Assembly (NCBI GenBank): GCA_001897035.1
Contig: MKRS01000155.1
Span: forward strand, 1 to 17,515
Length of the DNA stretch: 17,515 nt
Direction of reading: 5' to 3'
Origin: Bacteroidales bacterium 45-6
Lineage (GTDB): Bacteria; Bacteroidota; Bacteroidia; Bacteroidales; Dysgonomonadaceae
Both the position numbers and the translations under genes were made by a program. This document shows, piece by piece, positions 1 to 17,515 of the stretch. The notes under the pieces are model-generated. The model saw nothing but the letters and a program-made list of their open reading frames with translations, ran no database searches and had not been told where the DNA came from. Each line of letters begins with the position of its first letter. Position 1 is the first letter of the stretch.

Positions 1-2979
1 GTCACATTGAAGTCGAATCCGACAATTGGGGCGACGACAGACTTAGATGGTAAATTCTCTTTGCAGATACCATCTGGAAGCCAAGTTTTGATTTTCACTT
101 ATCTTGGAATGAACAAAAAGGAGGTGCCGGTGCATGGACAACGCCTTCTCAATGTGCAAATGGAAGAAGACAACAAAGTGCTGAACGAAGTAATTGTGGT
201 CGGTTATGGACAACAGAAAAAAGAAAGTGTGGTGGGTTCTATCACCCAAACTTCGGGAAAAGTGCTGGAACGCGCGGGAGGGGTCACAAACCTTGGCCAG
301 GCGCTGACCGGGAATCTCCCTGGGGTGGTTACTACAAGTTCTACGGGCGTTCCCGGGGCAGAAGATCCTAAGATTGTAATCAGGAGTCAAAGCTCATGGA
401 ACAACAGCGACCCTTTGGTCCTGGTGGATGGAATAGAACGTTCCCTAAGCTCCATCGACATCTCTTCCGTGGAAACCGTGTCGGTGCTCAAAGATGCGTC
501 TGCAACGGCAGTATATGGTGTGAGAGGTGCCAATGGAGTTATCTTGATCACGACCAAGCGTGGCTCGGAAGGAAAAGCCAATATTCAGATCCGAGCTAAT
601 ATGACGGCCAAGGTTGTGTCAAAACTTCCTAAAAAATACGATGCTTACGATACGTTCCAGCTTCTCAACAATTCGATAGAAAGAGAGCTTCCCCTTTCCT
701 CGGGAGGATGGTCGAGCTACACGCCGACGGACATCATCAACAAGTATAGGTATCCGGCGAATGCCGAAGAATGGGATCGTTATCCCAACGTGGATTGGGA
801 AAAAACCCTTTTCAAAGATTATGCCATGTCATACAACACCAGTGTGAATGTTGCTGGTGGAACAAAAACTGTTAAATATTTCACAGCTGTGGACTTTGTG
901 CACGAAGGAGACTTGTTCCGCACTTTTGAAAACAATAGGGGATATAGCTCTGGCTATGGCTACAATAGAATCAATGTACGTAGCAATTTGGACTTCGACT
1001 TGTCGAAAACTACCAAGTTTTCTGCCAATTTGTTTGGATCCAATGGCGTGCGCACTCTCCCTTGGGTAGGAGCCGCTGGAAATGAATCGGATCAAGGATA
1101 TTGGGCCTCGGCCTACCGCACTGCACCGGATGCCATGCGTCCTATTTATTCCAATGGGGCATATGGGTTTTATGGACCAAGAGATGCGGATGTTCCCAAC
1201 TCGGTTTACAATCTTGCCATATCGGGGATAGAAAAAAGTACCAAGACTCAGATTACCACCGACTTTATCCTTAATCAGGATTTGGGTACGCTTGTTAAAG
1301 GAATGAGTGTAAAGGCCAATATTTCGTTGGATAATTCTTTCCAGGAATATGAACGTGGAATCAACGATTTATACCATTATGCACAGCAAATATGGGTGGA
1401 TCCGGCAACTGGGATTGTAAAATACAAGCAGCCTGTAAACTCAGGAACTCAGCTTGACTTCGCGGAAAGTGTTATTTGGGCACCCCAGGCGGGAAATGTA
1501 AACCTGGGAGCCACTTTCCGTAAGGTTTATTACTCTGGTCAGCTCAATTACGCCCGCAAGTTCGGAAAGCACGATGTGACCGGAATGGGTCTGTTCAGTC
1601 GTGAAAAGTACACTTTGGGGAACGAATTTCCTCACTTCCGTGAAAACTGGGTATTCCGCACAACATACAATTATGATTCAAGGTATTTTGCAGAAGTCAA
1701 TGGAGCTTACAACGGATCGGAGAAATTTGGTGCGAACAATCGTTTTGCTTTCTTCCCTTCTTTCTCAGGGGGATGGCTGATGACAAGTGAGGATTTCATG
1801 AAAGACGTGAAATTTCTCGAGATGCTGAAATTCCGCGCTTCTTGGGGTAGGATAGGGGACGACAATGTGGGTGGCCGCTTCCTGTACACAGATCAGTGGG
1901 CTTACACAGGCAATGCCTCTCTGGGAGATGTTACTCCAGCCAATACTCCCTACACTTTTTATAGAATCAGCTCTTTGGGAAATCCCAATGTATCGTGGGA
2001 AACTGTCGAAAAACGCAACTTTGGTGCTGATTACTCGTTGTTCGGTGGATTGCTCGCCGGATCTGTCGATGTCTTTAGCGACAAACGTTCGGACATCCTG
2101 ATTGCTGGTGGTTCTCGCGCTGTTCCGAGCTATTTTGGTGATACGCCTCCGATGATTAACCTGGGAAAAGTGAATAGCCATGGATATGAACTGGAAGTTC
2201 GTTTTAATCACGTGTTTGGAAATGGAATGCGCCTGTGGTCAAACGCAAACATGACTCACGCCGTAAACAAAGTGATATTCCGGGATGATCCGGAACTATA
2301 TTACGCATACCAGAAACAGCAAGGATATCCGATTGGGCAAACCAAAGCATACCTTGATTATGGATACCTTAAAAGCTGGGATGATGTGTATGGAAGCACT
2401 GAAAGGGCAACAAACAATCCAAACAAGCTTGCCGGAGATTATAATATAATCGACTACAATGGTGACGGAGTTATTGACGATTATGATCGGGCTCCTTATG
2501 AATATACGGGAACTCCTCAAAACACCTACAGTGCCTCGCTCGGGTTCGAATGGAAAGGATTCAGTGCATTCGTGCAATTTTATGGAGTGAACAATGTCAC
2601 CCGCGAAATTACGTTTCCCACTTTCCATTCCACTTCGCATGTCGCTTTTGTTGAAGGATCCTACTATGCTAAGGGTGTGGGTGGAGACGTTCCGTTGCCA
2701 CGCTGGACTACCAACGTGGGCGGCGATGCGGCCGGTACTCGCTATTTATACGATGGTTCTTACGTGCGTTTGAAAAATGCTGAAATTGCCTATACATTCA
2801 AGAATGTATTAGTGAACAAAATCGGAATCAAGTCCTGCCGGGTTTACCTGAACGGAGACAACCTGTTGCTATGGACCAAAATGCCCGATGACCGCGAGTC
2901 AAACTTCAGCGGCAGCTCTAGCTTTGGAGCATACCCTACCGTACGTCGTTTTAATTTAGGGATAGACATAACCTTATAA
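1..2979 (+). CDS. xusA: SusC-family TonB-dependent outer-membrane transporter, XusA-like (5' end cut off)
   Basis: Outer-membrane beta-barrel that, with its SusD partner, imports glycan oligosaccharides into the periplasm using TonB energy. The frame is open from base 1, so the start and signal peptide lie upstream; 992 residues are visible. The visible N-terminus is the tail of a carboxypeptidase-regulatory-like domain (TTDLDGKFSL, about residues 12-21). It is followed by the TonB-box region EVIVVGYG (about 63-70) and a plug with LVLVDGIE and GVRGANGVILITTKRG. The barrel follows, carrying the calcium-loop-like DYNGDGVIDDYD (near 2455-2490) usual in SusC proteins. The C-terminus is NLGIDITL. 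It lies 12 bases before a SusD gene, so the two form a pair. The xusA name and the xylan specificity come from gene order (SusCDCD, DUF1735 lipoprotein, GH10-type gene), not from the protein itself. The SusC assignment is very secure; the substrate is inferred. Confidence 0.93.
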   Translation, partial: VTLKSNPTIGATTDLDGKFSLQIPSGSQVLIFTYLGMNKKEVPVHGQRLLNVQMEEDNKVLNEVIVVGYGQQKKESVVGSITQTSGKVLERAGGVTNLGQALTGNLPGVVTTSSTGVPGAEDPKIVIRSQSSWNNSDPLVLVDGIERSLSSIDISSVETVSVLKDASATAVYGVRGANGVILITTKRGSEGKANIQIRANMTAKVVSKLPKKYDAYDTFQLLNNSIERELPLSSGGWSSYTPTDIINKYRYPANAEEWDRYPNVDWEKTLFKDYAMSYNTSVNVAGGTKTVKYFTAVDFVHEGDLFRTFENNRGYSSGYGYNRINVRSNLDFDLSKTTKFSANLFGSNGVRTLPWVGAAGNESDQGYWASAYRTAPDAMRPIYSNGAYGFYGPRDADVPNSVYNLAISGIEKSTKTQITTDFILNQDLGTLVKGMSVKANISLDNSFQEYERGINDLYHYAQQIWVDPATGIVKYKQPVNSGTQLDFAESVIWAPQAGNVNLGATFRKVYYSGQLNYARKFGKHDVTGMGLFSREKYTLGNEFPHFRENWVFRTTYNYDSRYFAEVNGAYNGSEKFGANNRFAFFPSFSGGWLMTSEDFMKDVKFLEMLKFRASWGRIGDDNVGGRFLYTDQWAYTGNASLGDVTPANTPYTFYRISSLGNPNVSWETVEKRNFGADYSLFGGLLAGSVDVFSDKRSDILIAGGSRAVPSYFGDTPPMINLGKVNSHGYELEVRFNHVFGNGMRLWSNANMTHAVNKVIFRDDPELYYAYQKQQGYPIGQTKAYLDYGYLKSWDDVYGSTERATNNPNKLAGDYNIIDYNGDGVIDDYDRAPYEYTGTPQNTYSASLGFEWKGFSAFVQFYGVNNVTREITFPTFHSTSHVAFVEGSYYAKGVGGDVPLPRWTTNVGGDAAGTRYLYDGSYVRLKNAEIAYTFKNVLVNKIGIKSCRVYLNGDNLLLWTKMPDDRESNFSGSSSFGAYPTVRRFNLGIDITL

Positions 2980-2991
2980 AACTATTAGAAA

Positions 2992-4887
2992 ATGAATAAA
3001 TATATCAACAAGGTATTAGTGTCTGCGGCATTTGCGCTCGGCCTTCTGGGCATTACCTCGTGCACCGATTATCTGAACAAATCGCCTTTGAGCGATATCA
3101 ATTCGAATGATTCCTTTAAGAATTTCACGAATTTCCAGGGATTCACCGAAGAATTGTATAACTGTATTCCGGTCGTGAGCGCCCATGATTATCACAACAG
3201 TTGGAATTATGGGGAAGAAGAGCTTTGGGAAACGACTGCTTCGTATGCATTTGGAACCCGTATCGATCAAGGGGACTATTGGGCATGGACATCTGAAGGA
3301 ACAGGCTGGTTTATGCCAAAGGGGGATGATGATTATACCTTTAGCCAAACGCGCGGGGATAAGAAATACCTTTGGGGGCTTGCCTGGTATGGCATCCGTA
3401 AAGCAAACATTGGCCTTGCTAATTTGGACAAACTGACCGAAGCCACAGATGAAGGTAAAAGGCTGATTGCCGGACAGTTGTATTTTTTTAGGGGTTGGTT
3501 TTATTTCATGCTCATGCAGTACTGGGGTGGGCTTCCTTACATTAGCACGGCGCTTTCGCCCGAAGTGCAGCCAAAGCTTCCTCGGTTGAGCTACCAAGCT
3601 ACGGCCGATAGCGTTGCTCTCGATTTCAGGAAAGCAGCCGACCTGCTTCCCGTGAATTGGGATCAGACAGACATCGGCTTGACCACCAAAGGAAACAATA
3701 ATTTCCGTGCCAACAAGATTATGGCCTTGGCCTACTTGGGGAAAAACTATCTTTGGGCAGGTAGCCCCTTGATGAACCAAGAATCCACTGGTAGTAAATC
3801 TTATAACACCGAATATTGCAAGAAAGCCGCCGATGCTTTCGCCGAAGCTTTGCAGACCACCGAGTCAACAGGACGGTATGCTCTGGCTGACTTTTCCCAA
3901 TGGACAGATCTATTTTATATACGTAGTGCAACCGCCAAAGTTCCAGGACTGAAAGAGTCCATTTTTATGGAAAATATATGCGAATTGGCTGCTCGCTGGC
4001 GCTGGAACATGGTCAACGACTTCCGTCCACAGGTCATCAATACTTCAGGGGTGAAAGTATATCCCACAGCTAATTATGTTGATAATTACGGAATGAAAAA
4101 TGGCTTCCCGATAAAAGACCCAACGGTGAAGGATCCAGAATCTGGATACGATCCCGAATATCCTTGGAAAAACCGAGATCCTCGTTTCTACAAAGACATT
4201 GTTTTTGATGGAGTGAAATGTACCAACAACGGTAAGGGAACTCAAAAAGAAGATGTTCAGTATGCGAGCCTTTATACAGGTGGAACATACAGAACCAGCG
4301 GAGCAGCCAAAGGTGTGGTTACAGGATATATGAACACTAAGTTGTGTCCTCCCTTAATGAACGACGATGATGGGTATAAAGAGAACAACTGTTTGGCCTT
4401 GTCGTTTATGCGCTTGTCCGATGTTTACCTGATGTATGCCGAAGCTACAGCTTGGGGGTATGGATCTCCTCAAAGTGCTGCGGGCAATTATTCGCTGAAG
4501 GCCTATGAAGCAGTCAACAAAGTCCGCGCCAGAGCAGGCGTAGGAAACGTTGCCGAAAAATTCCTGAATGATAATGACAGTTTTATGGGCGAACTTAGAC
4601 GTGAACGTGCTGTCGAATTGGCTTTTGAAGGTCACCGTTTTGTTGACCTAAGGCGTTGGATGTTATTGACAGAGAGTCCCTATACGTTGAAAAAATCCGT
4701 AGAGTTTGACCGTGCCAATGATGTTGCTCCATCTGTGTTGTATGCAAATCCGCAGAACGCACGCGTGAAGAATTTCCGTGAAGTGGTCTTGCTTGAAAGG
4801 CATCTGAGTGTGAAGCACTATTGGTTCCCACTCCCAAAAGCGGATGTGAACATGTATAAGGAATTCAAGCAGAATCCTGGATGGTAA
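2992..4887 (+). CDS. xusB: SusD-family surface glycan-binding lipoprotein, XusB-like
   Basis: Cell-surface lipoprotein that caps the upstream SusC channel and helps bind incoming oligosaccharides. The 631-residue product starts MNKYINKVLV, with a hydrophobic segment ending in the lipobox-like GITSC. Cys24 is the expected lipidation site and is followed by TDYLNK, typical of SusD. The body fits the TPR-rich SusD/RagB fold. The family signature RRERAVELAFEGHRFVDLRR is at about residues 535-554, and the C-terminus WFPLPKADVNMYKEFKQNPG W is the usual SusD ending. The start at 2992 is chosen because it gives a complete signal peptide 12 bases after the upstream stop, with the A-rich leader normal for Bacteroidetes. 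It is probably co-transcribed and complexed with the upstream SusC. Xylan as ligand is inferred from the neighbours; the binding residues cannot be read from sequence. Confidence 0.93.
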   Translation: MNKYINKVLVSAAFALGLLGITSCTDYLNKSPLSDINSNDSFKNFTNFQGFTEELYNCIPVVSAHDYHNSWNYGEEELWETTASYAFGTRIDQGDYWAWTSEGTGWFMPKGDDDYTFSQTRGDKKYLWGLAWYGIRKANIGLANLDKLTEATDEGKRLIAGQLYFFRGWFYFMLMQYWGGLPYISTALSPEVQPKLPRLSYQATADSVALDFRKAADLLPVNWDQTDIGLTTKGNNNFRANKIMALAYLGKNYLWAGSPLMNQESTGSKSYNTEYCKKAADAFAEALQTTESTGRYALADFSQWTDLFYIRSATAKVPGLKESIFMENICELAARWRWNMVNDFRPQVINTSGVKVYPTANYVDNYGMKNGFPIKDPTVKDPESGYDPEYPWKNRDPRFYKDIVFDGVKCTNNGKGTQKEDVQYASLYTGGTYRTSGAAKGVVTGYMNTKLCPPLMNDDDGYKENNCLALSFMRLSDVYLMYAEATAWGYGSPQSAAGNYSLKAYEAVNKVRARAGVGNVAEKFLNDNDSFMGELRRERAVELAFEGHRFVDLRRWMLLTESPYTLKKSVEFDRANDVAPSVLYANPQNARVKNFREVVLLERHLSVKHYWFPLPKADVNMYKEFKQNPGW

Positions 4888-4940: not shown

Positions 4941-7799
4941 ATGAAAAGAAAATATATGAATATCGGCTATGCTCTTTTTGCCTCGTTCCTGCTAAATGCG
5001 GTAGGCTTGCAGGCACAGGAAAAGAAGGATAGCCTTGCCAATGTTGCTTTTGGGACAGTTGCTCAGAAAGATTTGCTGGGTGGTGTTTCGGTGGTCAATG
5101 TATCTGATTTGATGAAGAAAAATTATGCCACATATAGTCTCGATGGAATCCAGAGCTTTGTGGGCGGATACACTGGGAATATCTGGGGGCAAGGAGGCTT
5201 GGTGTTGGTGGACGGGATTCCTCGAAACGCGTCGGATGTACGTGCTTCCGAGGTGGAGTCCGTCACAGTGCTGAAAGGGGCGAGCGCGATTGCGCTTTAT
5301 GGCAGCAAGGCGGCCAAAGGTGTTGTCCTGATAGCCACCAAAAGGGGCGAAATCAAACCATTGGCTATTGATTTTCGGGTTAATACCGGCCTTTATGTTC
5401 CAAAAAGGTATCCGAATTATCTGAATTCGGCAGACTATATGACTTTATACAATGAGGCATACAGGAACGATGGAAATTCAACGGACTATTATAGCCCAAG
5501 CCAGATCTACAATACGGCTTCGGGTGTAAATCCTTACCGTTACCCGGATGTTGATTTCTTCAATTCAGATTATCTAAAGAAAGCGTACAACAAGACAGAT
5601 GCCACAATGGAAGTTTCCGGCGGAACTGAACGTGTGCGCTACTATTCGAATTTTGGAATGTCGTACAACAACAGCTTGATAAAGTATGGAGAACAGAGCA
5701 AAAACAATGATATGCGCTTCAATGTCAGGGCCAATCTCGATATGGACCTCAATGAATGGTTGTCCGCTTCTGCCGATGCTGTGGTCGTTGTCTCTGACAA
5801 CTACACGGGCCGGGGAGATTTTTGGGGAAATTCAGCGACACTGCGTCCCAACTGGTTTTCGCCATTGATCCCTGTTAGCATGTTGGATCCTAACAATTCG
5901 ACCTTGCAAACGTATGTGAAGAACAGCAATCACCTCATCGGAGGGCAATATTTGTTAGGTGGATTGTCCACTAACCTGACTAACGCATTTTCCGATATGC
6001 TTGCCGCAGGTTATGTCAAGAACAAAAACCGCACATTTATGTTCGACGTCAATGTGAAGGCCGATTTGGACAAAATCTTGAATGGCTTGTCTTTCAAAAC
6101 TCTTTATAGCGTGGACTATACCGATGCCTATTCAGAGGCTTACAACTTGCCTTATGCTGTGTATCAGCCTACTTGGGCAAACACCAACGGAGCCGACATG
6201 ATTATTGGACTGACCAAATACAACGATGATAAGAATTCTACCAACGAATATGTAGGTAGCACTTCATATCGCCAGACTATGTCTTTCAGTTCACAGTTCA
6301 ACTACCAGCGGACGTTTGCGCAGCATCACAATGTGTCAGCCGCTTTGATCGGTTGGGGATATCAGATTCAAAACTCGGCAGATGCAAATCACAGCGGTAG
6401 CGCTTATCACCGCACCAGCAATGTGAATCTCGGTATGCAGGCCGCATATAATTTCAAGAACAAGTATTATTTCGATTTTTCTGCTGCCGAAGTTCATTCC
6501 GCTCAATTGCCCGAAAAGAACCGCAATGCATTTTCTCCTACCGTAACTCTCGGATGGCGCATCAGCGATGAGGCTTTTTTCAAGAACAAGTTGCCGTTTG
6601 TTGACAATTTGAAACTGACAGCTTCCTATGCCAACCTTCATCAGGATATTGATATTACAGCCACCATCTCGGATGTAGTGACAGACTACTATCTTTATAA
6701 GGGATATTTTGCTAACAATGCGGGCTGGTATCAATGGCATGACAGTTCTGCCGGAGGAAACACCACTGGGTCTAAACGAGGCAACAACATGAATATGAAC
6801 TTTGTTGAACGCAATGAATACCGTGTGGGATTGGAAGCTTCTGTCCTTAACAAGCTGATTACCTTGGATGCCAATTACTTCTTGCAATATACCAATGGGG
6901 GCTTGGTGCAAGGAAGCAACACAATCTATCCTTCTTATTTTTCAAATTGGGATTTTTCATTCTTGCCTTACCAGAACTATAACAAGGACAAGAGAACTGG
7001 TGTCGATTTCACGGTGAATATGAACAAAAAGGTAGGACGAGTGGACTGTTCGCTTGGCTTTGCGGGTATGCTTTTCTCGTCAAAGGCTCTTCGCCGCGAC
7101 GAAGTATATTCGGATAAATACCAATACCGTGTGGGCAAACCTCTCGATTCTTCATGGGGGTATATCAACGAAGGATTCCTGACGCAGGCTGATGTGGATG
7201 CAATAAATACTGGCAAGCAGGCGAACCCAACGTTTGGTACCGTTAAGCCCGGTAATCTTAAATATAAGGATGTGAACCAGGATAACGTTATCGATTCCAA
7301 AGACCAAGTAAACCTTGGGCACAATGGTTGGGCCGTTTCCCCCTTTACCTATGGTGTCAACTTGACTTTGAAATGGAATAATTTCACCTTCTTTGCATTG
7401 GTGACAGGCCAGAGTGGTGCAATTGCTTTCAAAAATTCATCCTATTACTGGGTCAAAGGCAGCAGCAAATATTCAGATGTAGTTTGGGGACGCTGGACTG
7501 GGGAAGACATGCAAGACAAGGCCACCTATCCGAGGCTCACCACTACCGATAACAGCAATGACTATCAAAACTCCACTTTCTGGATGTACAAAAACAATCG
7601 TTTAGACCTCAATAGAGCGCAGATCACGTATGACTTTGATAAGAAAGTGTTGAAAAATTCATTTGTTCACAACCTTAGCGTGTATCTGAGTGGAGAAAGC
7701 TTGCTTACAATATCGAAAGAGCGTAAGCTGATGGAAACTAATGTTGGAGTTTCCCCACAATGCCGGTTCTTCAACCTGGGTGTCAAGGCCTCTTTCTAA
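4941..7799 (+). CDS. xusC: Second SusC-family TonB-dependent transporter, XusC-like, without the N-terminal regulatory domain
   Basis: Outer-membrane importer of 952 residues, the second SusC of the operon. The signal peptide ends at LQA (about residue 25). The mature protein begins QEKKDSLANVAFGTVAQ, so the carboxypeptidase-regulatory-like domain that precedes the plug in the first SusC is absent. The usual VVVGYG is replaced by NVAFGTV (34-40). The plug is also shorter: GIQSFVGGYTGN (69-80) runs almost directly into LVLVDGIP (87-94). It still keeps VESVTVLKGASAIALYGSKA and GVVLIATKRG. A calcium-loop-like DVNQDNVIDSKD lies near 7270-7305. The barrel ends in FNLGVKASF, with the terminal Phe expected for outer-membrane assembly. 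The gap to xusB is 53 bases with no promoter motif seen, so read-through transcription is likely. The family call is secure. The shortened N-terminus looks native, because a good signal peptide sits directly before it. Confidence 0.92.
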   Translation: MKRKYMNIGYALFASFLLNAVGLQAQEKKDSLANVAFGTVAQKDLLGGVSVVNVSDLMKKNYATYSLDGIQSFVGGYTGNIWGQGGLVLVDGIPRNASDVRASEVESVTVLKGASAIALYGSKAAKGVVLIATKRGEIKPLAIDFRVNTGLYVPKRYPNYLNSADYMTLYNEAYRNDGNSTDYYSPSQIYNTASGVNPYRYPDVDFFNSDYLKKAYNKTDATMEVSGGTERVRYYSNFGMSYNNSLIKYGEQSKNNDMRFNVRANLDMDLNEWLSASADAVVVVSDNYTGRGDFWGNSATLRPNWFSPLIPVSMLDPNNSTLQTYVKNSNHLIGGQYLLGGLSTNLTNAFSDMLAAGYVKNKNRTFMFDVNVKADLDKILNGLSFKTLYSVDYTDAYSEAYNLPYAVYQPTWANTNGADMIIGLTKYNDDKNSTNEYVGSTSYRQTMSFSSQFNYQRTFAQHHNVSAALIGWGYQIQNSADANHSGSAYHRTSNVNLGMQAAYNFKNKYYFDFSAAEVHSAQLPEKNRNAFSPTVTLGWRISDEAFFKNKLPFVDNLKLTASYANLHQDIDITATISDVVTDYYLYKGYFANNAGWYQWHDSSAGGNTTGSKRGNNMNMNFVERNEYRVGLEASVLNKLITLDANYFLQYTNGGLVQGSNTIYPSYFSNWDFSFLPYQNYNKDKRTGVDFTVNMNKKVGRVDCSLGFAGMLFSSKALRRDEVYSDKYQYRVGKPLDSSWGYINEGFLTQADVDAINTGKQANPTFGTVKPGNLKYKDVNQDNVIDSKDQVNLGHNGWAVSPFTYGVNLTLKWNNFTFFALVTGQSGAIAFKNSSYYWVKGSSKYSDVVWGRWTGEDMQDKATYPRLTTTDNSNDYQNSTFWMYKNNRLDLNRAQITYDFDKKVLKNSFVHNLSVYLSGESLLTISKERKLMETNVGVSPQCRFFNLGVKASF

Positions 7800-7821
7800 T
7801 AAACTAAATGTATATAGTGAA

Positions 7822-9597
7822 ATGAAAAAGAATATATTATTTATTTTTGCTAGCATCTTATTGTTCTGTAGCTGTGATGACTTGTTTAATCCGGCTGCCG
7901 AAAACTTCAAGGATGTCGATCAGATGTATACCGACCCGGCGTATGCGCAAGGGTTTCTGGTGAACGTGTACCGCACCATTCCTGCTTATTACGATAATAG
8001 CGATTATGCTACGGACGATGCCGTAACTAATCAGAAAAGCAACAGCTATCTCAAGATGGCCACTGGTGCCTGGACTTCATCCAACAATCCGGTTAATCGC
8101 TGGACGGATGCTTTTGGAGCTATCCAATACCTTAATTTGTTTCTTGCCAATGCAGATAAGGTGAAATGGGCGCAGGACGAGCAGCCGTCTAAGCTTTTCA
8201 ATAGAAGGATGAAGGGTGAGGCATTTGGAATGCGTGCATTGTTCATGTACTACCTCCTCAGAGCACATGCCGGATTCTCGGCAGACGGAACCTTGCTGGG
8301 GGTGCCCATCCTGAAACAGTTCCAGACGATAAACGACAACTTCAATTTGCCTCGTGCCACTTTCAACGATTGCGTGAAGCAAATATACCAGGACTTGGAT
8401 AGTGCCCAGTTGTATTTGCCGATGGAATTTGAAGATGTAAAAACCGATGCTGATATCCCTGCCCGTTTTAGAGACATCACAACTACATCCGTCGTTTATA
8501 ACCGTGTTATGGGACAATACGCCCGGCAGCTTTATAATGGTTTGATAGCGAGATCGTTTAGGGCAAGAGTCGCCCTTCTCGCAGCCAGCCCTGCTTTTCA
8601 GGATTCATCGAATCCTTCCACCTGGGTTGAGGCTGCTGATGCGGCCGCTTCTGTGCTCGATTACATCCAGGGTGTGGCCGGTCTCGATCCTAATGGTGCT
8701 ACTTATTATGCCAATACAGCCGAGATTGATAATCTCAAAGATGGGCTTAATCCAAAGGAAATGATCTGGAGGGAGAATATCAGCGCAACCAACAGCGATC
8801 AGGAAGCTCAGAACTTTCCACCTTCGTTATACGGGACTGGATATATGAATCCTACCCAAAACCTTGTGGATGCATTCCCCATGGCGAATGGCTATCCGAT
8901 CAATTATGCCGACCCAAGCAAAAGCGGCTATAGTGCTTCCAATCCTTATGCCAACAGGGACCCGCGTTTAGGCAAGTATATTATTTACAATGGTAGCACT
9001 GAAGGTGTTTCGAATACCGTCATCAATACAGGAAGTGCGGGAGGAAAGGATGGTATAAATGTCACGGATGGCTCTTCAACCCGTACGGGCTATTACATGA
9101 GGAAACGTCTTCGGATGGATGTCAACCGAAATCCGGCATCCATACAAGGTAAGCCCCATTACAATCCACGTATCCGATATACGGAAATGTTCTTGACGTA
9201 TGCCGAGGCTGCTAACGAGGCCTGGGGACCGACAGGCACAGGTACTCACTCATATTCCGCGTATGATATCATCAAGGCCATCCGCAAAAGAGCAGGAGTG
9301 GGCACCACTAACGGTGATCCATATTTGGAAGAGTGCAAGGGAGATCAAGCTAAAATGCGGGAATTGATACGCAACGAACGCCGTCTCGAACTTTGTTTCG
9401 AAAGCTTCCGCTTCTGGGACCTTCGCCGCTGGAAGCTCAATTTGAACGAGACCGCCCGCGGTATGGATGTTTCCAGATCTTATCAGCTAATTGATGTGGA
9501 AGAACGTTCTTATGAAGATTATATGTATTATGGTCCTATTCCATATTCAGAGATACTCAAATACAGTAATTTGACTCAGAACAAAGGATGGAACTAA
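7822..9597 (+). CDS. xusD: Second SusD-family surface lipoprotein, XusD-like
   Basis: Surface glycan-binding lipoprotein paired with the second SusC. The start at 7822 gives MKKNILFIFASILLFCSCDD, a short lipoprotein signal with Cys18 as the likely lipidated residue; the mature protein starts CDDLFNPAAENF. The frame is open further upstream to 7741, but that stretch overlaps the SusC gene and would bury the signal peptide, so it is not used. The product is 591 residues. The SusD C-terminal signature ERRLELCFESFRFWDLRRW is at about 519-537, and the protein ends in YGPIPYSEILKYSNLTQNKG WN, typical of the family. It lies 22 bases after the xusC stop. It differs clearly from the first SusD, so the two SusC/D pairs may prefer different chain lengths or decorations. 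The ligand is inferred from context only. Confidence 0.92.
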   Translation: MKKNILFIFASILLFCSCDDLFNPAAENFKDVDQMYTDPAYAQGFLVNVYRTIPAYYDNSDYATDDAVTNQKSNSYLKMATGAWTSSNNPVNRWTDAFGAIQYLNLFLANADKVKWAQDEQPSKLFNRRMKGEAFGMRALFMYYLLRAHAGFSADGTLLGVPILKQFQTINDNFNLPRATFNDCVKQIYQDLDSAQLYLPMEFEDVKTDADIPARFRDITTTSVVYNRVMGQYARQLYNGLIARSFRARVALLAASPAFQDSSNPSTWVEAADAAASVLDYIQGVAGLDPNGATYYANTAEIDNLKDGLNPKEMIWRENISATNSDQEAQNFPPSLYGTGYMNPTQNLVDAFPMANGYPINYADPSKSGYSASNPYANRDPRLGKYIIYNGSTEGVSNTVINTGSAGGKDGINVTDGSSTRTGYYMRKRLRMDVNRNPASIQGKPHYNPRIRYTEMFLTYAEAANEAWGPTGTGTHSYSAYDIIKAIRKRAGVGTTNGDPYLEECKGDQAKMRELIRNERRLELCFESFRFWDLRRWKLNLNETARGMDVSRSYQLIDVEERSYEDYMYYGPIPYSEILKYSNLTQNKGWN

Positions 9598-9629
9598 AAC
9601 TTTTGATTAATCCTAAAAAAGAAAACAAT

Positions 9630-10745
9630 ATGAAAATAGTTAAGATATTCGCAGGAATCGCAGTTGCCACTGTTGTGGCACTAAGCTCGACTTCATGCGA
9701 AAACCGGGATGTGGAGTATGGCGATTTCGACTATCAGACCGTCTATTTTGGAAATCAGTTCCCCGTACGAACACTGGAGCTTGGTGAAGACTTGTATGTG
9801 GACAACTCCATAGACAACGAACATAAGGTGATTATCAAGGCTACAATTGGTGGTACGCGTAACAACACAAAAGACATCACGATTGGCTTCGCTGTAGATA
9901 ATACCTTGTGCAACGGCTTGTATTTTAATGGCACAAATACACCTCTCACGCCAATGCCGGCTTCCTATTATGAATTGGCTTCCAACACGATGACGATTCC
10001 TGCCGGAAGCATACTCGGAGGTGTGGAAGTGAAGTTGACCGATGCTTTTTTTGCTGACCCTAAGGCACTTTCTAATAATTATGTGATCCCATTGGTGATG
10101 ACCAATGTGGTAGGGGCCGATTCTATTCTTCGCGGCACACCATTGGTGGCTAATCCAAACCGTTGCATTGATGCTGACTGGAACGTGAAGCCAAGAGATT
10201 TTGTCCTTTATGCTGTGAAATATGTAAATAAGTGGCACGGCAATTACTTGAGGAGAGGAACAGACAATGTGGTCAAGGACGGTGTTACCGCTACGGAGGT
10301 TCGCCACAGCCAATATGTGGAAAATGATCCTGTTTATACACTCACCACTTCATCATTGTCTCAGTTGAATTTTCCGCTTTCGTTTTTGAGCAAGCAAAAA
10401 GTGAATCTCCCCATTCCTTTGCAGCTTTCATTCGATTCAAATTCCAATTGCACTATTGGGCAGCCTTCTTCCAGCATTCAAGTGAGCGACAGTGTTTTGA
10501 TTTACAATATTGCTTTGACTAAGGGACAAGGTAAGTTTGCGCAAAAGGGAGAGTTGAACAGCTTTGGCGGAAAAAGCAGGGATGCCATTTACTTGGATTA
10601 TTCCATCAGCTTTGAAGTGCAATCCACTTTTCCGAAGGCCAAACTGCCACTCATCCATGAAGTTCGATCTTATGCAACCAAAGACACATTGGTGTTGAGG
10701 GATAGAGGTGTAGCTCCGGAATATTTTACTGTGGTGAAAAAATAA
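9630..10745 (+). CDS. xusE: XusE-like surface lipoprotein with DUF1735-type N-terminal domain
   Basis: Putative surface glycan-binding protein of 371 residues. The start at 9630 gives MKIVKIFAGIAVATVVALSS with lipobox STSC and Cys23 as the lipidation site. An upstream in-frame ATG at 9588 overlaps the end of xusD and would place 14 polar residues before the signal, so it is rejected. Residues about 33-165 resemble the DUF1735 (BT_3987-like) beta-sandwich domain found in Bacteroidetes surface lipoproteins, with YQTVYFGNQFPVRTLELG near its start. After a short link (PNRCIDADWN), the region from WNVKPRDFVLYAVKYVNKWH GNYLRRG onward looks like the DUF5627-type C-terminal half seen in XusE proteins. 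No catalytic motif is visible. It follows xusD by 32 bases and sits where xusE occurs in known xus operons. Glycan binding is inferred from family and position. Confidence 0.82.
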   Translation: MKIVKIFAGIAVATVVALSSTSCENRDVEYGDFDYQTVYFGNQFPVRTLELGEDLYVDNSIDNEHKVIIKATIGGTRNNTKDITIGFAVDNTLCNGLYFNGTNTPLTPMPASYYELASNTMTIPAGSILGGVEVKLTDAFFADPKALSNNYVIPLVMTNVVGADSILRGTPLVANPNRCIDADWNVKPRDFVLYAVKYVNKWHGNYLRRGTDNVVKDGVTATEVRHSQYVENDPVYTLTTSSLSQLNFPLSFLSKQKVNLPIPLQLSFDSNSNCTIGQPSSSIQVSDSVLIYNIALTKGQGKFAQKGELNSFGGKSRDAIYLDYSISFEVQSTFPKAKLPLIHEVRSYATKDTLVLRDRGVAPEYFTVVKK

Positions 10746-10863: not shown

Positions 10864-12594
10864 ATGAAACATATAAATAAATTTCTTTTGCTTGCTGTGG
10901 TTGCTGCTGCGTTGGTTTCCTGCGCGGAAGATTACGAGTCGGGTCATACCTACTCTAAGCCAGACCCCGTCCTGGAAACAGAATACCTAAACAGCTTTGG
11001 CATTTTGAAAACCTATGTGGATCGTGCTGCCAACCCCATCTTTAAACTGGGTGCAGGTGTCAATGCAAGTGTTTTTCTAAAGAAAGAGGTGGATTATAGC
11101 TTGCGGTATGCTAATTTTGATGAAGTCACACCGGATACAGCTCTGACTCATAAAGTGGCCATCAAAAACGATGGAACAACAGACTTCTCGACAGCTTCAT
11201 CCTTCATAAAAGCGGCGAAAGCATCTGGTGTTGCTGTTTATGGGCATACACTTTGCTGGCACGCTAACCAAAACAACACATATCTCAATAGTATCATCCA
11301 GGGAAAGGCTTATTCCGGGACAACGTTGATTGCTGACTTCGAGTCGAATGCTATCGGAGACAGCTATTTGATGACAGGCAATAGCTCGGCTACTGTGATG
11401 GCGGATCCTGCAAAACAATCAGGTAATGTCTTAAAAGTGGGTACTTCGGCTACTCCCGCCAGCCAGTCTTTTCCAAAGTTCAACATCACCTTGCCTGCAG
11501 GCCGGGTGTTGGGGGATTACAAAACATTGACTCTGGATTTCAATGGACCTGGTAATGGAGGACTCTACGGAAGTGGCATGAGAGTAATCATCAATTCGAA
11601 TGCGGCAGTGGTGTTCGGATCTCCTTCAAGTTTCGGCTGTCCAGATGGAGCTTGGGGTAGAGGAAAGATTGTCCTGGACTTGACCAAATTGAACCTTTCG
11701 GATGCAGACAAGGCTTTGACTAACTTCACGATGGCTGTTGGTTCGGGAACCGGTTCGGGAAACTATTATATAGACAATATTACCATGAAATGGCAATATA
11801 ACGACGTAAAGAGTCCCGCGCAAAAAATGGAAATTATTACCACAGCGTTGAATCAGTGGATTGATGGCATGATGAAAGCAAATGCAGGCTACGTCACGGC
11901 CTGGGATCTGGTTAGCGAGCCGATGTCCGACAATGACAGTTACCTGTTGAAATCAGGTGCAACTGAGGCCAATGCCAGCTCTTATTTCTTCTGGCAAGAT
12001 TATCTTGGGGAAAATTATGCGCGTAAAGCTGCAAGTGCAGCACGCACTTACTTTGCTCAATATGGAGGCAAAGCTGACGACTTGAAGCTTTTTGTTGATG
12101 ACTACGGTCTTGAAAACGGTAGCAGTACCAAATGTGACCGGTTGATACAAATCATAGCCCAATGGGAAGCGGACGGAACAACAAAGATTGATGGAATAGG
12201 CACCCAAATGCATGTGGTTTATTCGCTTGACGCCACCAAACAGGCGGCCAACGAGGCAGGTATCCTAAGCATGTTCAACAAGTTGAAGGCTACCGGCAAG
12301 CTTATTCGCATTTCAGGCTTGAGCGTAGATATTGCCGATGCAAGCGGTGCAGCCATCAAAACCGCAAATGTGACTCCTGAACAACAAAAAGCGATGGCGG
12401 CCTATTACTATTATATAGTTCAAAAATATATGGAGATCATACCAAGCGCGCAACGCTATGGAATCACTTTGTCGAACCCGACTGATGTGGGTGATAAAGC
12501 GTATGGACTTTGGACATCCACTTACAACCGCAAATATACCTATATCGGGTTCTTGCAAGGATTGGCTGGACAACCGCTTAATATAGCTAAATAA
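10864..12594 (+). CDS. GH10 xylanase-fold lipoprotein with inserted CBM-like domain, predicted catalytically inactive
   Basis: 576-residue lipoprotein (lipobox ALVSC, Cys20) in the position of xyn10A in known xus operons. The GH10 fold is recognisable from KLGAGVN (61-67), GHTLCWHANQN (127-137), AWDLVSEP (346-353), FWQDYLGENY (376-385), LKLFVDDY (407-414), IDGIGTQMH (442-450) and the C-terminal YNRKYTYIGFLQGLAG. A beta-rich insert (about 150-311), starting LIADFE and ending YYIDNITMKW, is the CBM-like domain that splits Bacteroidetes GH10 enzymes. The acid/base Glu352 remains, but the Asn normally before it is Ser351. The nucleophile motif, normally ISELD, is ISGLS, so the nucleophile is Gly485 (codon GGC, 12316-12318). 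ENxMK of the early loop is DTALT (91-95), and a Trp expected near the glycone site is Ser537. Most likely a surface xylan-binding pseudoenzyme; weak residual activity cannot be excluded from sequence. Confidence 0.88.
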   Translation: MKHINKFLLLAVVAAALVSCAEDYESGHTYSKPDPVLETEYLNSFGILKTYVDRAANPIFKLGAGVNASVFLKKEVDYSLRYANFDEVTPDTALTHKVAIKNDGTTDFSTASSFIKAAKASGVAVYGHTLCWHANQNNTYLNSIIQGKAYSGTTLIADFESNAIGDSYLMTGNSSATVMADPAKQSGNVLKVGTSATPASQSFPKFNITLPAGRVLGDYKTLTLDFNGPGNGGLYGSGMRVIINSNAAVVFGSPSSFGCPDGAWGRGKIVLDLTKLNLSDADKALTNFTMAVGSGTGSGNYYIDNITMKWQYNDVKSPAQKMEIITTALNQWIDGMMKANAGYVTAWDLVSEPMSDNDSYLLKSGATEANASSYFFWQDYLGENYARKAASAARTYFAQYGGKADDLKLFVDDYGLENGSSTKCDRLIQIIAQWEADGTTKIDGIGTQMHVVYSLDATKQAANEAGILSMFNKLKATGKLIRISGLSVDIADASGAAIKTANVTPEQQKAMAAYYYYIVQKYMEIIPSAQRYGITLSNPTDVGDKAYGLWTSTYNRKYTYIGFLQGLAGQPLNIAK

Positions 12595-12611
12595 GATACT
12601 CTCGATTGTGC

Positions 12612-12633
12612 TGCGCATATTGTGATATGCGTA
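12612..12633 (+). terminator. Small hairpin just downstream of the GH10-like gene, possible transcript end
   Basis: CGCATAT (12614-12620) and ATATGCG (12625-12631) form a perfect 7-base stem around TGTG, extended by a G-T and a T-A pair to 12612-12633. It begins 17 bases after the stop at 12594. No T-run follows (TGATGAAATG), so a rho-independent terminator in the strict sense is not supported. It may be a 3'-end stabilising hairpin or chance. Confidence 0.35.
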
Positions 12634-12647
12634 TGATGAAATGTCAC

Positions 12648-12712
12648 GCATGGGTTTTCCAACTAAGACGAATTTGACAAAAAGAATACGTCTAAGATAA
12701 GGAAGCCCATGC
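12648..12712. repeat. 65-base imperfect inverted repeat (long stem-loop)
   Basis: The left arm GCATGGGTTTTCC (12648-12660) pairs with the right arm GGAAGCCCATGC (12701-12712) with one G-T pair and one bulged base. Farther in, CTAAGACG (12663-12670) pairs with CGTCTAAG (12689-12696) except for one A-A mismatch. The 18-base loop is AT-rich. This could be a strong RNA terminus for transcripts arriving from either side, or a worn inverted-repeat element. It also lies inside the minus-strand HTH-like frame, so part of the symmetry could be coincidental with coding sequence. Confidence 0.5.
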
Positions 12713-13066
12713 TTGTTTTGTTTTCTGGCCGCCGATTTGCTAAAAGTCGTAGGGGTATTTCCCATTTTCGTTGGATAGGCCTCCTCATTTTTCAGAATAG
12801 GCTCTGCTGCCTGTCGGTCATAAAGGGCCATCTCTATTTGCCTAATGAGCACTTTTGCAATCCATTCATGCAAGCTGTCACAATCCTGCCATTTTATATT
12901 CGTGGGCATTCGCCTTCCATCCTCTTTCACCTAGTTTTCCCGGCTTTCAATTTGCTTCAAAACCTCGGATTTCAGGAATGCAATTTTTTGGTTTGCAAAT
13001 GGGATATTTAACAGACTTAGGTGCCATTTGCGCCATTTTTTTGCATGGATGAAACGAAGAGAAATG

Positions 13067-13081
13067 TATTTGTTACAAATA
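13067..13081. promoter_or_regulatory. 15-base palindrome upstream of the GH43 promoter, candidate operator
   Basis: TATTTGT-T-ACAAATA is a perfect inverted repeat with 7-base arms around one central T. It lies about 40-70 bases upstream of the candidate -33/-7 elements, a usual position for an activator site. TTACGTAA (13093-13100), another perfect palindrome, follows 11 bases later. The regulator is unknown; AT-rich palindromes can arise by chance. Confidence 0.35.
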
Positions 13082-13118
13082 GAAACATACTGTTACGTAA
13101 TCAAACGAATGGGAAACA

Positions 13119-13156
13119 TTTGTAAGGCTTCCCTTGAACCTATGTTTGTATATTTG
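13119..13156 (+). promoter_or_regulatory. Candidate Bacteroidetes-type promoter for GH43-GH95
   Basis: TATGTTTG (13141-13148) matches the Bacteroidetes -7 consensus TAnnTTTG exactly. It is followed directly by a second match, TATATTTG (13149-13156). A -33-like TTTG sits at 13119-13122, leaving an 18-base spacer to the first -7 box, one base short of the usual 19-21. Transcription would begin near 13155-13165, giving a leader of about 125-135 bases before the GH43 start at 13289. It is the only site in the window where both boxes were found at near-correct spacing. Confidence 0.55.
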
Positions 13157-13185
13157 TAGTACTTGGATTTTATACCATAATTGTA

Positions 13186-13268
13186 AATGTGCCAATCGTC
13201 GAATATGCCAATGTAAGAACGGCCAATGTGCCAATAGAGGGAATTAGTAAATGCTATAATTCGCGAAT
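13186..13268. repeat. Repeated GCCAAT motif and palindrome in the GH43 leader
   Basis: GCCAAT occurs four times, at 13191, 13207, 13222 and 13230. The longer unit AATGTGCCAAT occurs twice (13186-13196 and 13225-13235). Downstream lies the perfect 10-base palindrome ATTCGCGAAT (13259-13268), overlapping a second inverted repeat, GAATTA (13241-13246) with TAATTC (13257-13262). AATCGT is repeated at 13266 and 13273. All of this falls between the candidate promoter and the GH43 start, so it could be a regulator-binding cluster or leader-RNA element. Function is inferred only from density and position. Confidence 0.4.
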
Positions 13269-13288
13269 CGTTAATCGTAAATAAATAT

Positions 13289-15028
13289 ATGAAAAAAATT
13301 AGTCTTAAAATCAGCCAGCTTATTGCCTTCATGGCCATTTTTGCAACCTCCTTCCAGTCGGGAGCGGCGCAGGTTGCGAAAAACAATAAAAACAACCCCT
13401 TATTCACCAAGTTTGTGTATCAGGGCGAAGACCAGATATATAAAGACAATCCGCTTGCAGAAGGCGAGTTTTATACTCCGATTCTTCAAGGTTGTTACCC
13501 CGACCCGAGCATCACGCGCAAAGGAAACGACTACTATCTGGTCAATTCCACCTTTGCCATGTTTCCGGGGGTTCCCATTTTCCACTCCACCGATTTGGTG
13601 AACTGGAAACAGATCGGCCACGTCTTGGACCGCAAGTCGCAGCTGAAAGTGGAGGATTCGGGTGTGAGCGCAGGAATTTATGCTCCGGACATCAAATACA
13701 ATCCCTACAACGATACTTTCTACATGATTACGACTCAGTTTTCGGGAGGTATGGGAAACATCATGGTGAAGACCAAAGATCCGCTGAAAGGTTGGAGCGA
13801 CCCGGTCAAATTGAAGTTCGACGGCATCGACCCGTCTATCTTCTTCGATGACAACGGCAAGGCATATATCGTTCACAACGATGCTCCCTACCGTGGCAAG
13901 GAACTCTACAACGGACACCGCGTGATAAAAATCTGGGAATACGATTTGAATACCGATCAGATTATTCCCGGCACCGACAAGATAATTGTGGACGGAGGCG
14001 TGGACATCAAGAAGAAGCCCATCTGGATTGAAGGCCCGCACATGTATAAGAAAAACGGGAAATACTACCTGATGTGTGCTGAAGGCGGCACTGGCGGATG
14101 GCACAGCGAAGTTATCTTCATGGGCGATAGTCCCAAAGGCCCTTTTGTACCTTCCAGCAACAACCCCATCCTCACTCAGCGGTATTTCACCGGCAAACGT
14201 GCCAACCAAGTGGATTGGGCAGGACATGCCGACCTGGTGGAAGGTCCCGATGGCAAATACTATGGAGTTTTCTTGGCTATCCGCCCCAATGACAAAGGGT
14301 TGGTGAATAGCGGCCGCGAAACGTTTATCCTTCCGGTGGACTGGACAGGCAAGTTTCCCGTGTTCGAAAATGGGCTGGTGCCGCTTGAGCCGAAATTGAA
14401 AACTCCCAACGGGGTGGCCAACCGCACAGGCCAGGACGGATTTTTCCCGAACGGCAACTTCACCTTCACCGAGAATTTCGCAACTCCTTCGCTCGATTTC
14501 AGATGGATCGGCATGAGAGGCCCGCGCGAAGACTTTATTTCCGTCAATGCAAAGTCGGGAGGAGTGCAAATCGTGCCTTTCCCTGTCAACATCAAAGCCG
14601 TGAAGCCCGTCTCTTGCCTTTTCCACAGGCAGCAACACAAGAATTTTACGGCTACCACCACGCTCGACTATCGTCCCAAACTTGAAACAGACTTGGCTGG
14701 CCTTGTTTGCTACCAGTCGGAAAGATTCAACTATGTTTTTGGGGTGACAAAAAAAGGCAAAGACACCTACCTCCTTTTGCAAAGGACGGAAAAGGGTAAT
14801 TCAGTGATTCTTGCAAGCGAAAAGGTGGATGTGGCCAAACCAATCCAGTTGCAGGTGTCGGCAAAAGGTGACAGCTACACTTTCAGCTATTCGGCGAATG
14901 GCGGCGAATGGAAGAATTTGGGCGGAACAGTTTCCGGCGACATCTTGTCAACGAATGTGGCTGGCGGTTTCACCGGAAGCTTGATAGGCCTCTACGCTAC
15001 TTCGGCAAACGACGCTCTTCCCCAATAA
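13289..15028 (+). CDS. GH43 beta-xylosidase/alpha-L-arabinofuranosidase, periplasmic
   Basis: Exo-acting glycosidase expected to release xylose and/or arabinose from imported xylo-oligosaccharides. The 579-residue product has a Sec signal peptide (cleavage near SGAA-QVA, about residue 27) and no lipobox, so it is probably periplasmic. The five-bladed propeller starts ILQGCYPDPSI, with Asp72 as predicted base. Asp181 in GIDPSIFFDD is the pKa modulator and Glu248 in WIEGPHMYKK the acid. WAGHADLVEGPDG (310-322) carries the conserved His of the central site. Residues about 390-575 form the concanavalin-like GH43_C2 domain found in XynB-type members. Family relatives usually end with one more strand (ADFDWF-like); this one stops shortly after GLYATSANDALPQ, so the last strand may be missing. 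The start follows an A-rich leader and its own promoter candidate. Subfamily and exact specificity cannot be settled by eye. Confidence 0.9.
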   Translation: MKKISLKISQLIAFMAIFATSFQSGAAQVAKNNKNNPLFTKFVYQGEDQIYKDNPLAEGEFYTPILQGCYPDPSITRKGNDYYLVNSTFAMFPGVPIFHSTDLVNWKQIGHVLDRKSQLKVEDSGVSAGIYAPDIKYNPYNDTFYMITTQFSGGMGNIMVKTKDPLKGWSDPVKLKFDGIDPSIFFDDNGKAYIVHNDAPYRGKELYNGHRVIKIWEYDLNTDQIIPGTDKIIVDGGVDIKKKPIWIEGPHMYKKNGKYYLMCAEGGTGGWHSEVIFMGDSPKGPFVPSSNNPILTQRYFTGKRANQVDWAGHADLVEGPDGKYYGVFLAIRPNDKGLVNSGRETFILPVDWTGKFPVFENGLVPLEPKLKTPNGVANRTGQDGFFPNGNFTFTENFATPSLDFRWIGMRGPREDFISVNAKSGGVQIVPFPVNIKAVKPVSCLFHRQQHKNFTATTTLDYRPKLETDLAGLVCYQSERFNYVFGVTKKGKDTYLLLQRTEKGNSVILASEKVDVAKPIQLQVSAKGDSYTFSYSANGGEWKNLGGTVSGDILSTNVAGGFTGSLIGLYATSANDALPQ

Positions 15029-15247: not shown

Positions 15248-17515
15248 ATGAAACGGATGAAAAAAATAAACATATATGTGCTGTCGCTCTTTGCTTTGCT
15301 TACGGCATCTGCTTCGGCGCAGAACCTCAAATTGTGGTACGATCGGCCTGCCAAAGTGTGGGAAGAAGCTTTACCGCTTGGAAACTCTCGTCTGGGAGCC
15401 ATGGTGTACGGGATTCCCCAGCGGGAAGAATTGCAATTGAATGAAGAAACCATTTGGGGAGGAGGACCTTACCGGAACGACAACCCGAAGGCACTGGCTG
15501 CTTTGCCCGAAATACGCCAACTGGTCTTTGACGGGAAGTCTGGTCAAGCAGACAAACTGATAAACGAGACATTCTTCACGAAAACGCATGGAATGCCTTA
15601 CCAAACTGCCGGAAGTGTTGTCCTGACTTTTCCCGGCCATCAAGCGTTTCAAAACTATTACCGAGAATTAGATATCAGCAAAGCTGTCGCTACCACCCGC
15701 TATACGGCGAACGGCGTGAACTACACCCGCGAAACATTTGTATCGTTTGCCGACAATGTAGTAATCATGCGGGTTACGGCCAGCAAGAAGGGCGCAATCC
15801 ATTTCGTGATGGGATATGCGAACCGGGCCGAACATAAGATTTTCAAGAAGGGTGATGTGTTGGTTCTGGAAGGAAAAGGTTCTGAACACGAAGGAATTGC
15901 CGGAAAAATAATCTACCAGACCCACACTTTCGTGAAAAACGAAGGGGGAAAGGTGGAAGTTTCCGACAGCACAATTTCCGTGTCGGGTGCCACGGTGGCC
16001 ACGGTGTATATTTCCATCGGCACAAATTTTAAAGATTACAAGACTGTCGGAAGTGGTCAAGCCGAAAAAGCGGCCAGCTATTTGGCGGCAGCCATCAAGA
16101 AAAATTACGATGCAGCCATCAGGAAACACTCAGATATGTATGCCAAGCAGTTCAACCGTTTCAAATTGGATTTAGGCACTGTCACTGAGGCTTCCAAAGA
16201 AAATACAGTAAAGCGCATAGCTGATTTCCATACCACTCAAGACCCTTCCTTGGTCACTCTCTTGTTTCAGTTTGGGCGTTATTTGCTGATTTGTTCATCC
16301 CAGCCAGGCGGGCAACCTGCAAATTTGCAAGGCATTTGGTGCAACTCGATGCGGCCACCTTGGGATAGCAAATACACCATCAACATCAATGCTGAAATGA
16401 ATTACTGGCCCGCGGAAGTGACCAACTTGTCCGAGACCCACCAGCCATTTATTCAAATGGTGAAAGAACTGAGCGAAAGTGGGCGTGAGACAGCCAAAGT
16501 ACTCTACGGAGCCGAAGGTTGGGTGGCCCACCACAACACCGACATTTGGCGTGTCACCAGCCCGATTGATTTTGCGGCGGCAGGTATGTGGCCCACCGGA
16601 GGTGCCTGGGTGAGCCAGCATTTGTGGGAGCATTATTTGTTCACAGGCGACAAGAAATATTTGGCGAGTGTGTATCCGGCGATGAAAGGTTCTGCTGATT
16701 TTTTCCTCAGCTCTTTGGTGAAGCATCCCCAATATGGCTGGATGGTGGTGAATCCTTCCATTTCGCCCGAACACGGTCCTATTTCTGCTGGCTGCACGAT
16801 GGACAACCAATTGGTTTTCGACATACTTACGCGGACAGCCTTGGCCAATGAGATACTTGGCGAGGACGCCTCTTACCGGGCCCGACTGTTGGACATGGTG
16901 AAAAAACTGCCTCCGATGCAAATTGGGAAATACACCCAGTTGCAGGAATGGCTCGAAGACAAAGACGATCCCAAGGAAGACCACCGGCATGTCTCGCATC
17001 TCTACGGATTGTTCCCCAGCGACCAGATTTCTCCCTACACCACTCCTCAATTGTTTGAGGCGGCACGCAATTCGTTGGTTTATAGAGGGGATATGGCGAC
17101 AGGCTGGTCTATCGGCTGGAAAGTGAACTTGTGGGCGCGCTTGTTGGACGGCGACCATGCGTATAAAATCATCCGCAATATGCTCACGTTGGCGGGCAAC
17201 AACAATCCCGAAGGAAGAACCTATCCCAACATGTTCACGGCGCATCCGCCTTTCCAGATCGATGGCAATTTTGGACTAACGGCCGGTGTGGCCGAAATGC
17301 TCCTTCAGAGCCACGACGGAGCAGTGCATTTGCTCCCGGCCTTGCCCGGCGCATGGAAAACTGGTGCTGTGTCAGGGATTGTGGCGCGCGGAGGGTTCGA
17401 AATAGCAATGAAATGGCAAGATGGGGAACCGGCGGAAGCAACTGTCCTTTCAAAGCTGGGCGGTAATCTGCGACTCCGTTCCTATGTGCCTCTGCAAGCT
17501 GCCGGACTGAAGAAA
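15248..17515 (+). CDS. GH95 alpha-L-fucosidase/alpha-L-galactosidase, periplasmic (3' end cut off)
   Basis: Inverting exo-glycosidase that removes terminal alpha-L-fucose or alpha-L-galactose. 756 residues are visible and the frame is open at the window end; family members are about 800 residues, so only the tail is missing. The signal peptide MKRMKKINIYVLSLFALLTA SASA is cleaved near ASA-QN (about residue 24), with no lipobox, so it is probably periplasmic. The N-terminal beta domain starts LKLWYDRPAKVWEEALPLGN. The (alpha/alpha)6 domain carries the family motifs: YTININAEMNYWPAE with the two base-activating Asn (379, 381), NPSISPEH with the acid Glu508, and FQIDGNFG with Asp672. All three key positions are intact. 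In xylan loci, GH95 enzymes can act on L-galactose caps of complex glucuronoarabinoxylan. L-fucose versus L-galactose preference is not decidable here. It lies 219 bases after GH43 on the same strand. Confidence 0.9.
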   Translation, partial: MKRMKKINIYVLSLFALLTASASAQNLKLWYDRPAKVWEEALPLGNSRLGAMVYGIPQREELQLNEETIWGGGPYRNDNPKALAALPEIRQLVFDGKSGQADKLINETFFTKTHGMPYQTAGSVVLTFPGHQAFQNYYRELDISKAVATTRYTANGVNYTRETFVSFADNVVIMRVTASKKGAIHFVMGYANRAEHKIFKKGDVLVLEGKGSEHEGIAGKIIYQTHTFVKNEGGKVEVSDSTISVSGATVATVYISIGTNFKDYKTVGSGQAEKAASYLAAAIKKNYDAAIRKHSDMYAKQFNRFKLDLGTVTEASKENTVKRIADFHTTQDPSLVTLLFQFGRYLLICSSQPGGQPANLQGIWCNSMRPPWDSKYTININAEMNYWPAEVTNLSETHQPFIQMVKELSESGRETAKVLYGAEGWVAHHNTDIWRVTSPIDFAAAGMWPTGGAWVSQHLWEHYLFTGDKKYLASVYPAMKGSADFFLSSLVKHPQYGWMVVNPSISPEHGPISAGCTMDNQLVFDILTRTALANEILGEDASYRARLLDMVKKLPPMQIGKYTQLQEWLEDKDDPKEDHRHVSHLYGLFPSDQISPYTTPQLFEAARNSLVYRGDMATGWSIGWKVNLWARLLDGDHAYKIIRNMLTLAGNNNPEGRTYPNMFTAHPPFQIDGNFGLTAGVAEMLLQSHDGAVHLLPALPGAWKTGAVSGIVARGGFEIAMKWQDGEPAEATVLSKLGGNLRLRSYVPLQAAGLKK

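Follow-up and report, generated by a model that had tools for sequence, protein, structure and literature searches.

Does the GH10-like gene that follows two SusC/SusD pairs in the window, that is, the whole 17,515-nucleotide stretch of DNA analysed here, still encode a xylanase, or does it encode a glycan-binding protein derived from one? The window corresponds to contig C155 in a draft genome of 3.8 Mb (899 contigs, about 85% completeness), and the features described below lie on its plus strand. A SusC-like transporter (7..2979) and a SusD-like protein (2992..4887) are followed by a second such pair (SusC-like, 4941..7799; SusD-like, 7741..9597) and by a XusE/BACOVA_03430-like protein (DUF5627; 9588..10745; E = 1.6e-96 to PDB 3n91). 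Next come the GH10-like gene (10864..12594), whose product we call P0001, a GH43 with a GH43_C2 domain (13289..15028) and a GH95 that extends past the window end (15248..17515). About 700 bases (12595-13288) separate the GH10-like gene from the GH43, and their sole plus-strand ORF of at least 80 aa is one of 100 aa (12709-13011). For P0001 we computed residues, predicted fold, homology and gene order; on these grounds it is very probably a surface glycan-binding lipoprotein, derived from a GH10 xylanase but catalytically inactive, that belongs to a xylan utilization locus resembling PUL-XylL of Bacteroides ovatus.

Domain composition and active-site replacements of P0001

P0001 is a predicted lipoprotein of 576 aa with a reading frame uninterrupted over all 576 codons. 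Its lipoprotein-type signal peptide (10864..10923) includes LVSC at residues 17-20, which we take to be the lipobox, and Cys20 is invariant in 37/37 aligned sequences. A profile match and a (beta/alpha)8 barrel in the predicted model, obtained with high confidence, place the protein within the GH10 fold. Residues 149-315 (11308..11808) form a single-copy inserted CBM-like beta-sandwich, which resembles both tandem inserts of the B. ovatus protein BACOVA_03431 (121 and 49 bits). The insert has no Pfam match, its best PDB sequence match is an unrelated protein (E = 0.84), and its likeness to CBM22, CBM11 and CBM4 is confined to the sandwich fold.

Of the two catalytic residues of an active retaining GH10 enzyme, P0001 has the acid/base, Glu352, and lacks the nucleophile Glu. 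The original prediction had read ISGLS (residues 483-487) in place of ISELD, with Gly485 encoded by GGC at 12316..12318, and this is what the sequence contains. The P0001 segment GKLIRISGLSVDI aligns without gaps with GKLIKISELDMGI of a same-genome paralogue on contig C499, which is 36% identical to P0001 and has both catalytic Glu intact; Gly485 falls on its nucleophile, Ser351 (11914..11919 together with Glu352) on its Asn and Ser537 (12472..12474) on its Trp, just as had been proposed for intact GH10 proteins, and family alignments agree on the placement of Gly485. Among the relatives from the organism's family (n = 29 at E 1e-20), the acid/base Glu is found in 29/29 and the nucleophile Glu in 28/28 with that column aligned; the ISGLS motif, for which the original prediction had suggested a survey of orthologues, recurs in Rufibacter latericius. 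A wider, non-random sample, gathered in part by querying with the inactive protein of B. propionicigenes and taking in GH10 proteins from other genome positions, comprised 188 distinct GH10-like sequences, of which 6 fell outside the final alignment and 176 had both Glu columns aligned. Both Glu are kept in 149 of these 176; the other 27, P0001 among them, have lost one or both (nucleophile, 24; acid/base, 11; both, 8).

The intact relatives also bear out the proposed Ser-for-Asn and Ser-for-Trp replacements, with Asn at position 351 in 146/149 and Trp at 537 in 147/149; position 487 is Asp in 146. The claim for the early loop stands in part. DTALT (11134..11148) occupies the place of the canonical ENxMK, and its replacement of Lys95 by Thr is informative (Lys in 136/149). 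However, the E and N positions vary among the same intact relatives (Gly for E in 117/149; for N, 80 with Asn, 42 with Tyr and 14 with Trp), and because most have Gly for E the change of the motif as a whole is only partly diagnostic. This loop, with Lys95, presumably belongs to the -2 subsite, whose disruption is a trait of BACOVA_03431-type binders; the replacements seen here may disturb that subsite in P0001. The joint loss of the nucleophile, Asn351, Trp537 and Lys95 supports inactivity, and the retention of Glu352 and several subsite residues counts against reading P0001 as an inactive binder. It had further been argued that the kept frame, lipoprotein signal, CBM-like insert, His128, Trp132, Gln448 and His450 point to selection for binding. 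All of them are indeed present, but the kept residues do not by themselves indicate such selection: His128, Trp132, Gln448 and His450 occur in 2, 5, 5 and 19 of the 27 Glu-loss sequences, respectively, and the rarity of the first three means that the class as a whole does not conserve them.

Comparison with BACOVA_03431 and other readings of the altered active site

The tentative mention in the original prediction of inactive GH10-like xylan binders in Bacteroidetes proved correct. BACOVA_03431 of B. ovatus PUL-XylL is described as a surface-located GH10 protein that is inactive on xylans and binds BGX and CX (Rogowski et al. 2015, PMC4491172); the available text of that paper also remarks that no other inactive GH10 binder was known and identifies 3N91 as the structure of BACOVA_03430. 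The inactive GH10 of PUL-XylL is likewise mentioned in the accessible portions of PMC4855328 and PMC11610566. No further inactive GH10 binder was recognized in a literature search that covered the available text of sources including PMC7815789, PMC7848910 and PMC8631079, with subscription papers mostly outside its scope. The inactive GH10 xylan binder is, as a kind, already known from BACOVA_03431.

Genome G517 encodes all 310 printed residues of 3n91 in an exact match; hence, we take it as B. ovatus and, from the gene order, infer the next gene to be BACOVA_03431, with the motifs WNIIGNP, RVSDLSMM and ISISG. The SusC/SusD/SusC/SusD/XusE block of the window is collinear with this PUL-XylL locus (65, 55, 59, 63 and 48% identity, respectively), and the GH43 of the window is 45% identical to a stretch adjoining the PUL-XylL Sus genes. 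A second B. ovatus locus (L265/L271) matches the block about equally (66, 59, 59, 61 and 45%), and similar blocks occur in Tannerella, Mediterranea, B. propionicigenes and Rufibacter. Both BACOVA_03431 and P0001 are GH10-like lipoproteins encoded after a 3N91-like protein and two SusC/SusD pairs, and in both the nucleophile Glu is lost, Trp has become Ser and an insert of one type is present. They differ in that BACOVA_03431 has two inserts in about 752 aa, whereas P0001 has one in 576 aa, and in that BACOVA_03431, with IIGNP and VSDLS, has lost the acid/base too, whereas P0001 retains Glu352, His128, Trp132, Gln448 and His450. P0001 is a member from another Bacteroidota family that retains more of the old active site. 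The second B. ovatus locus encodes a further GH10-like protein (L265:8299-10053, minus strand; G517:C1, approximately 3.142-3.144 Mb), which has lost both Glu (RWDIASCPM and ISDLNIT), follows SusC/SusD/SusC/SusD and a XusE-like gene and is 42% identical to P0001; we found no mention of it in the available text of PMC4491172.

Two other systems bear comparison. Xyn10C-type CBM-inserted GH10 xylanases of the xus operon, such as Pm25, share with P0001 an interrupted GH10 fold and a gene position after xusE, but they keep both catalytic Glu and have reported xylanase activity, whereas P0001 is without the nucleophile (PMC7848910, in its available text). The GH18 chitin-binding lectins offer an analogy, drawn in the accessible part of PMC4491172, of hydrolase family members turned into binders by catalytic loss, although their family and ligand are unrelated to those of P0001.

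The lost nucleophile, the intact frame and an operon matching that of BACOVA_03431 support the repurposing as a surface glycan-binding protein put forward in the original prediction. To judge from its sequence, P0001 would not hydrolyse xylan but would bind it and be exposed on the cell surface. Its GH10 cleft and single CBM-like sandwich could capture xylan at the outer membrane, next to the two SusC/SusD pairs and the XusE-like protein, and cleavage would fall to different enzymes encoded in this genome, for instance the intact Xyn10C-type paralogue on C499.

The same replacements might instead mark a pseudogene in decay, in which case P0001 would be a redundant, drifting copy without its former active site. 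The intact paralogue in the same genome fits this explanation, as does a Bacteroides genome (G549) in which the copy is broken into three matches and one of these contains 3 in-frame TGA codons. We nevertheless consider it improbable: P0001 combines an open frame, a lipobox and a high-confidence fold over 576 codons, the operon is conserved, and the Bacteroides relatives are under purifying selection. For ten Bacteroides BACOVA_03431-like genes, dN/dS was 0.05-0.17 in 25 of 45 pairs (dS near 2.5 in four of these and not computable in the other 20 pairs); selection was measurable in these relatives only, P0001 being without a close orthologue, and the two same-genus genomes searched gave no match to P0001 at E 1e-20. 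Still less probable is a weak or altered catalyst in which Glu352 and Gly485 give residual, rescued or synthetic chemistry, like an engineered E-to-G glycosynthase. GH10 nucleophile-to-Gly mutants do serve as glycosynthases, but the syntheses in the available text of PMC6151457 use glycosyl fluoride donors, and BACOVA_03431 is reported as inactive (PMC4491172). The glycosynthase structures 9fk1 and 9fk6 are among the fold matches of the P0001 model, and the engineered XT6 E265G shares Gly at the nucleophile; its change, however, is man-made, whereas in P0001 Asn351, Trp537 and Lys95 are gone as well. We know of no natural activated donor for glycosynthase-like synthesis. As for a sequence or assembly error, the window is one of the 899 contigs of a draft genome, yet such an error is hardly credible: codon 485 needs two base changes, ISGLS recurs in R. 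latericius, whose record names a strain, and several other active-site codons are changed too, so that, as had been argued, a single sequencing error is no explanation.

Shared versus separate loss of catalysis

In a tree of the GH10 core (76 rows, catalytic columns removed), P0001 falls in a 14-row clade (support 93/95), whose other members are ten BACOVA_03431-like rows, the second B. ovatus protein and two rows from Tannerella. All but one of the 14 rows lack a catalytic Glu; in the exception, L232, both are present, but the Asn, Asp and Trp are gone. A group made up of P0001 and the ten BACOVA_03431-like rows was not rejected (P = 0.47). A common origin of P0001 and the Rufibacter GH10 core (P = 1.3e-4) and a grouping of P0001 with its own intact paralogue (P = 3e-7) were tried and rejected. 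Over its length, P0001 is most similar to L264 (480 bits, 46%), followed by L265 (455 bits) and the Rufibacter protein (434 bits), with BACOVA_03431 matching in two 211-bit pieces. L264 (L264:8925-10988, minus strand), from B. ovatus, retains both Glu and has the insert type of P0001; it may show what the active ancestor looked like.

The best-supported tree has P0001 descending from the loss that gave BACOVA_03431. This common loss is not established, since neither a clade of the other 13 rows excluding P0001 (P = 0.36) nor a grouping of P0001 with L264 (P = 0.32) was rejected. P0001 might therefore have lost catalysis on its own from an intact insert-bearing enzyme, a possibility that we take seriously without favoring it and that would yield the same kind of binder, so that it is compatible with the main functional reading. 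Besides these two tests and the high similarity of L264, insert included, it draws on the recurrence of catalytic loss, for which the tree requires 9 changes under a strict label (a rough count, because some rows are long branches), and on the Rufibacter protein, which has the motifs of P0001 despite the rejected common origin. Against it stand the clade support and the match of the operon block to that of BACOVA_03431, though the loci of other inactive members match too.

Spread of catalytic loss among GH10-like proteins

What goes beyond the published case is the spread and repeated origin of catalytic loss. Outside the 14-row clade, losses were found in R. latericius (VVSEP, ISGLS), Confluentibacter sediminis (nucleophile), Desertivirga and Niabella (both Glu), Plebeiobacterium (both) and Botryobacter (acid/base to Asp, and Asp in place of Glu need not equal full inactivity); in four more genomes, both Glu are changed in two and the acid/base in two. 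We think it rather likely that GH10 pseudoenzymes form a general, repeatedly evolved xylan-capture class in Bacteroidota, in which the Xyn10C position in the xus operon came to encode a binder on several occasions, in some cases with identical motifs (ISGLS and VVSEP in this genome and Rufibacter) and often with one particular insert module. To judge from the survey, some of the "GH10 xylanase" genes found at this place in the operon appear to encode binders, which would affect genome-based prediction of xylan degradation; these pseudoenzymes would also provide a series of intermediates for studying the change from enzyme to lectin.

Several individual loci add to this picture. The Rufibacter protein (L204:10993-12672) has, besides its VVSEP and ISGLS, the Ser-for-Trp replacement of P0001 and an insert of the same type. 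A Tannerella sp. MAG encodes tandem GH10-like copies after XusE (L139:11066-14172 and L266), L266 having a partial copy without both Glu and then a copy with both. Two genomes of the order (L128:14611-16896 and L061) have proteins that have lost both Glu and lie outside the BACOVA_03431 clade. Finally, GH10-like proteins of Pontibacter and Botryobacter (L158, L161 and L176) have Lys instead of the Asn that precedes the acid/base, and Glu instead of the Asp that follows the nucleophile; both catalytic Glu are present in L158 and L161, but activity is doubtful.
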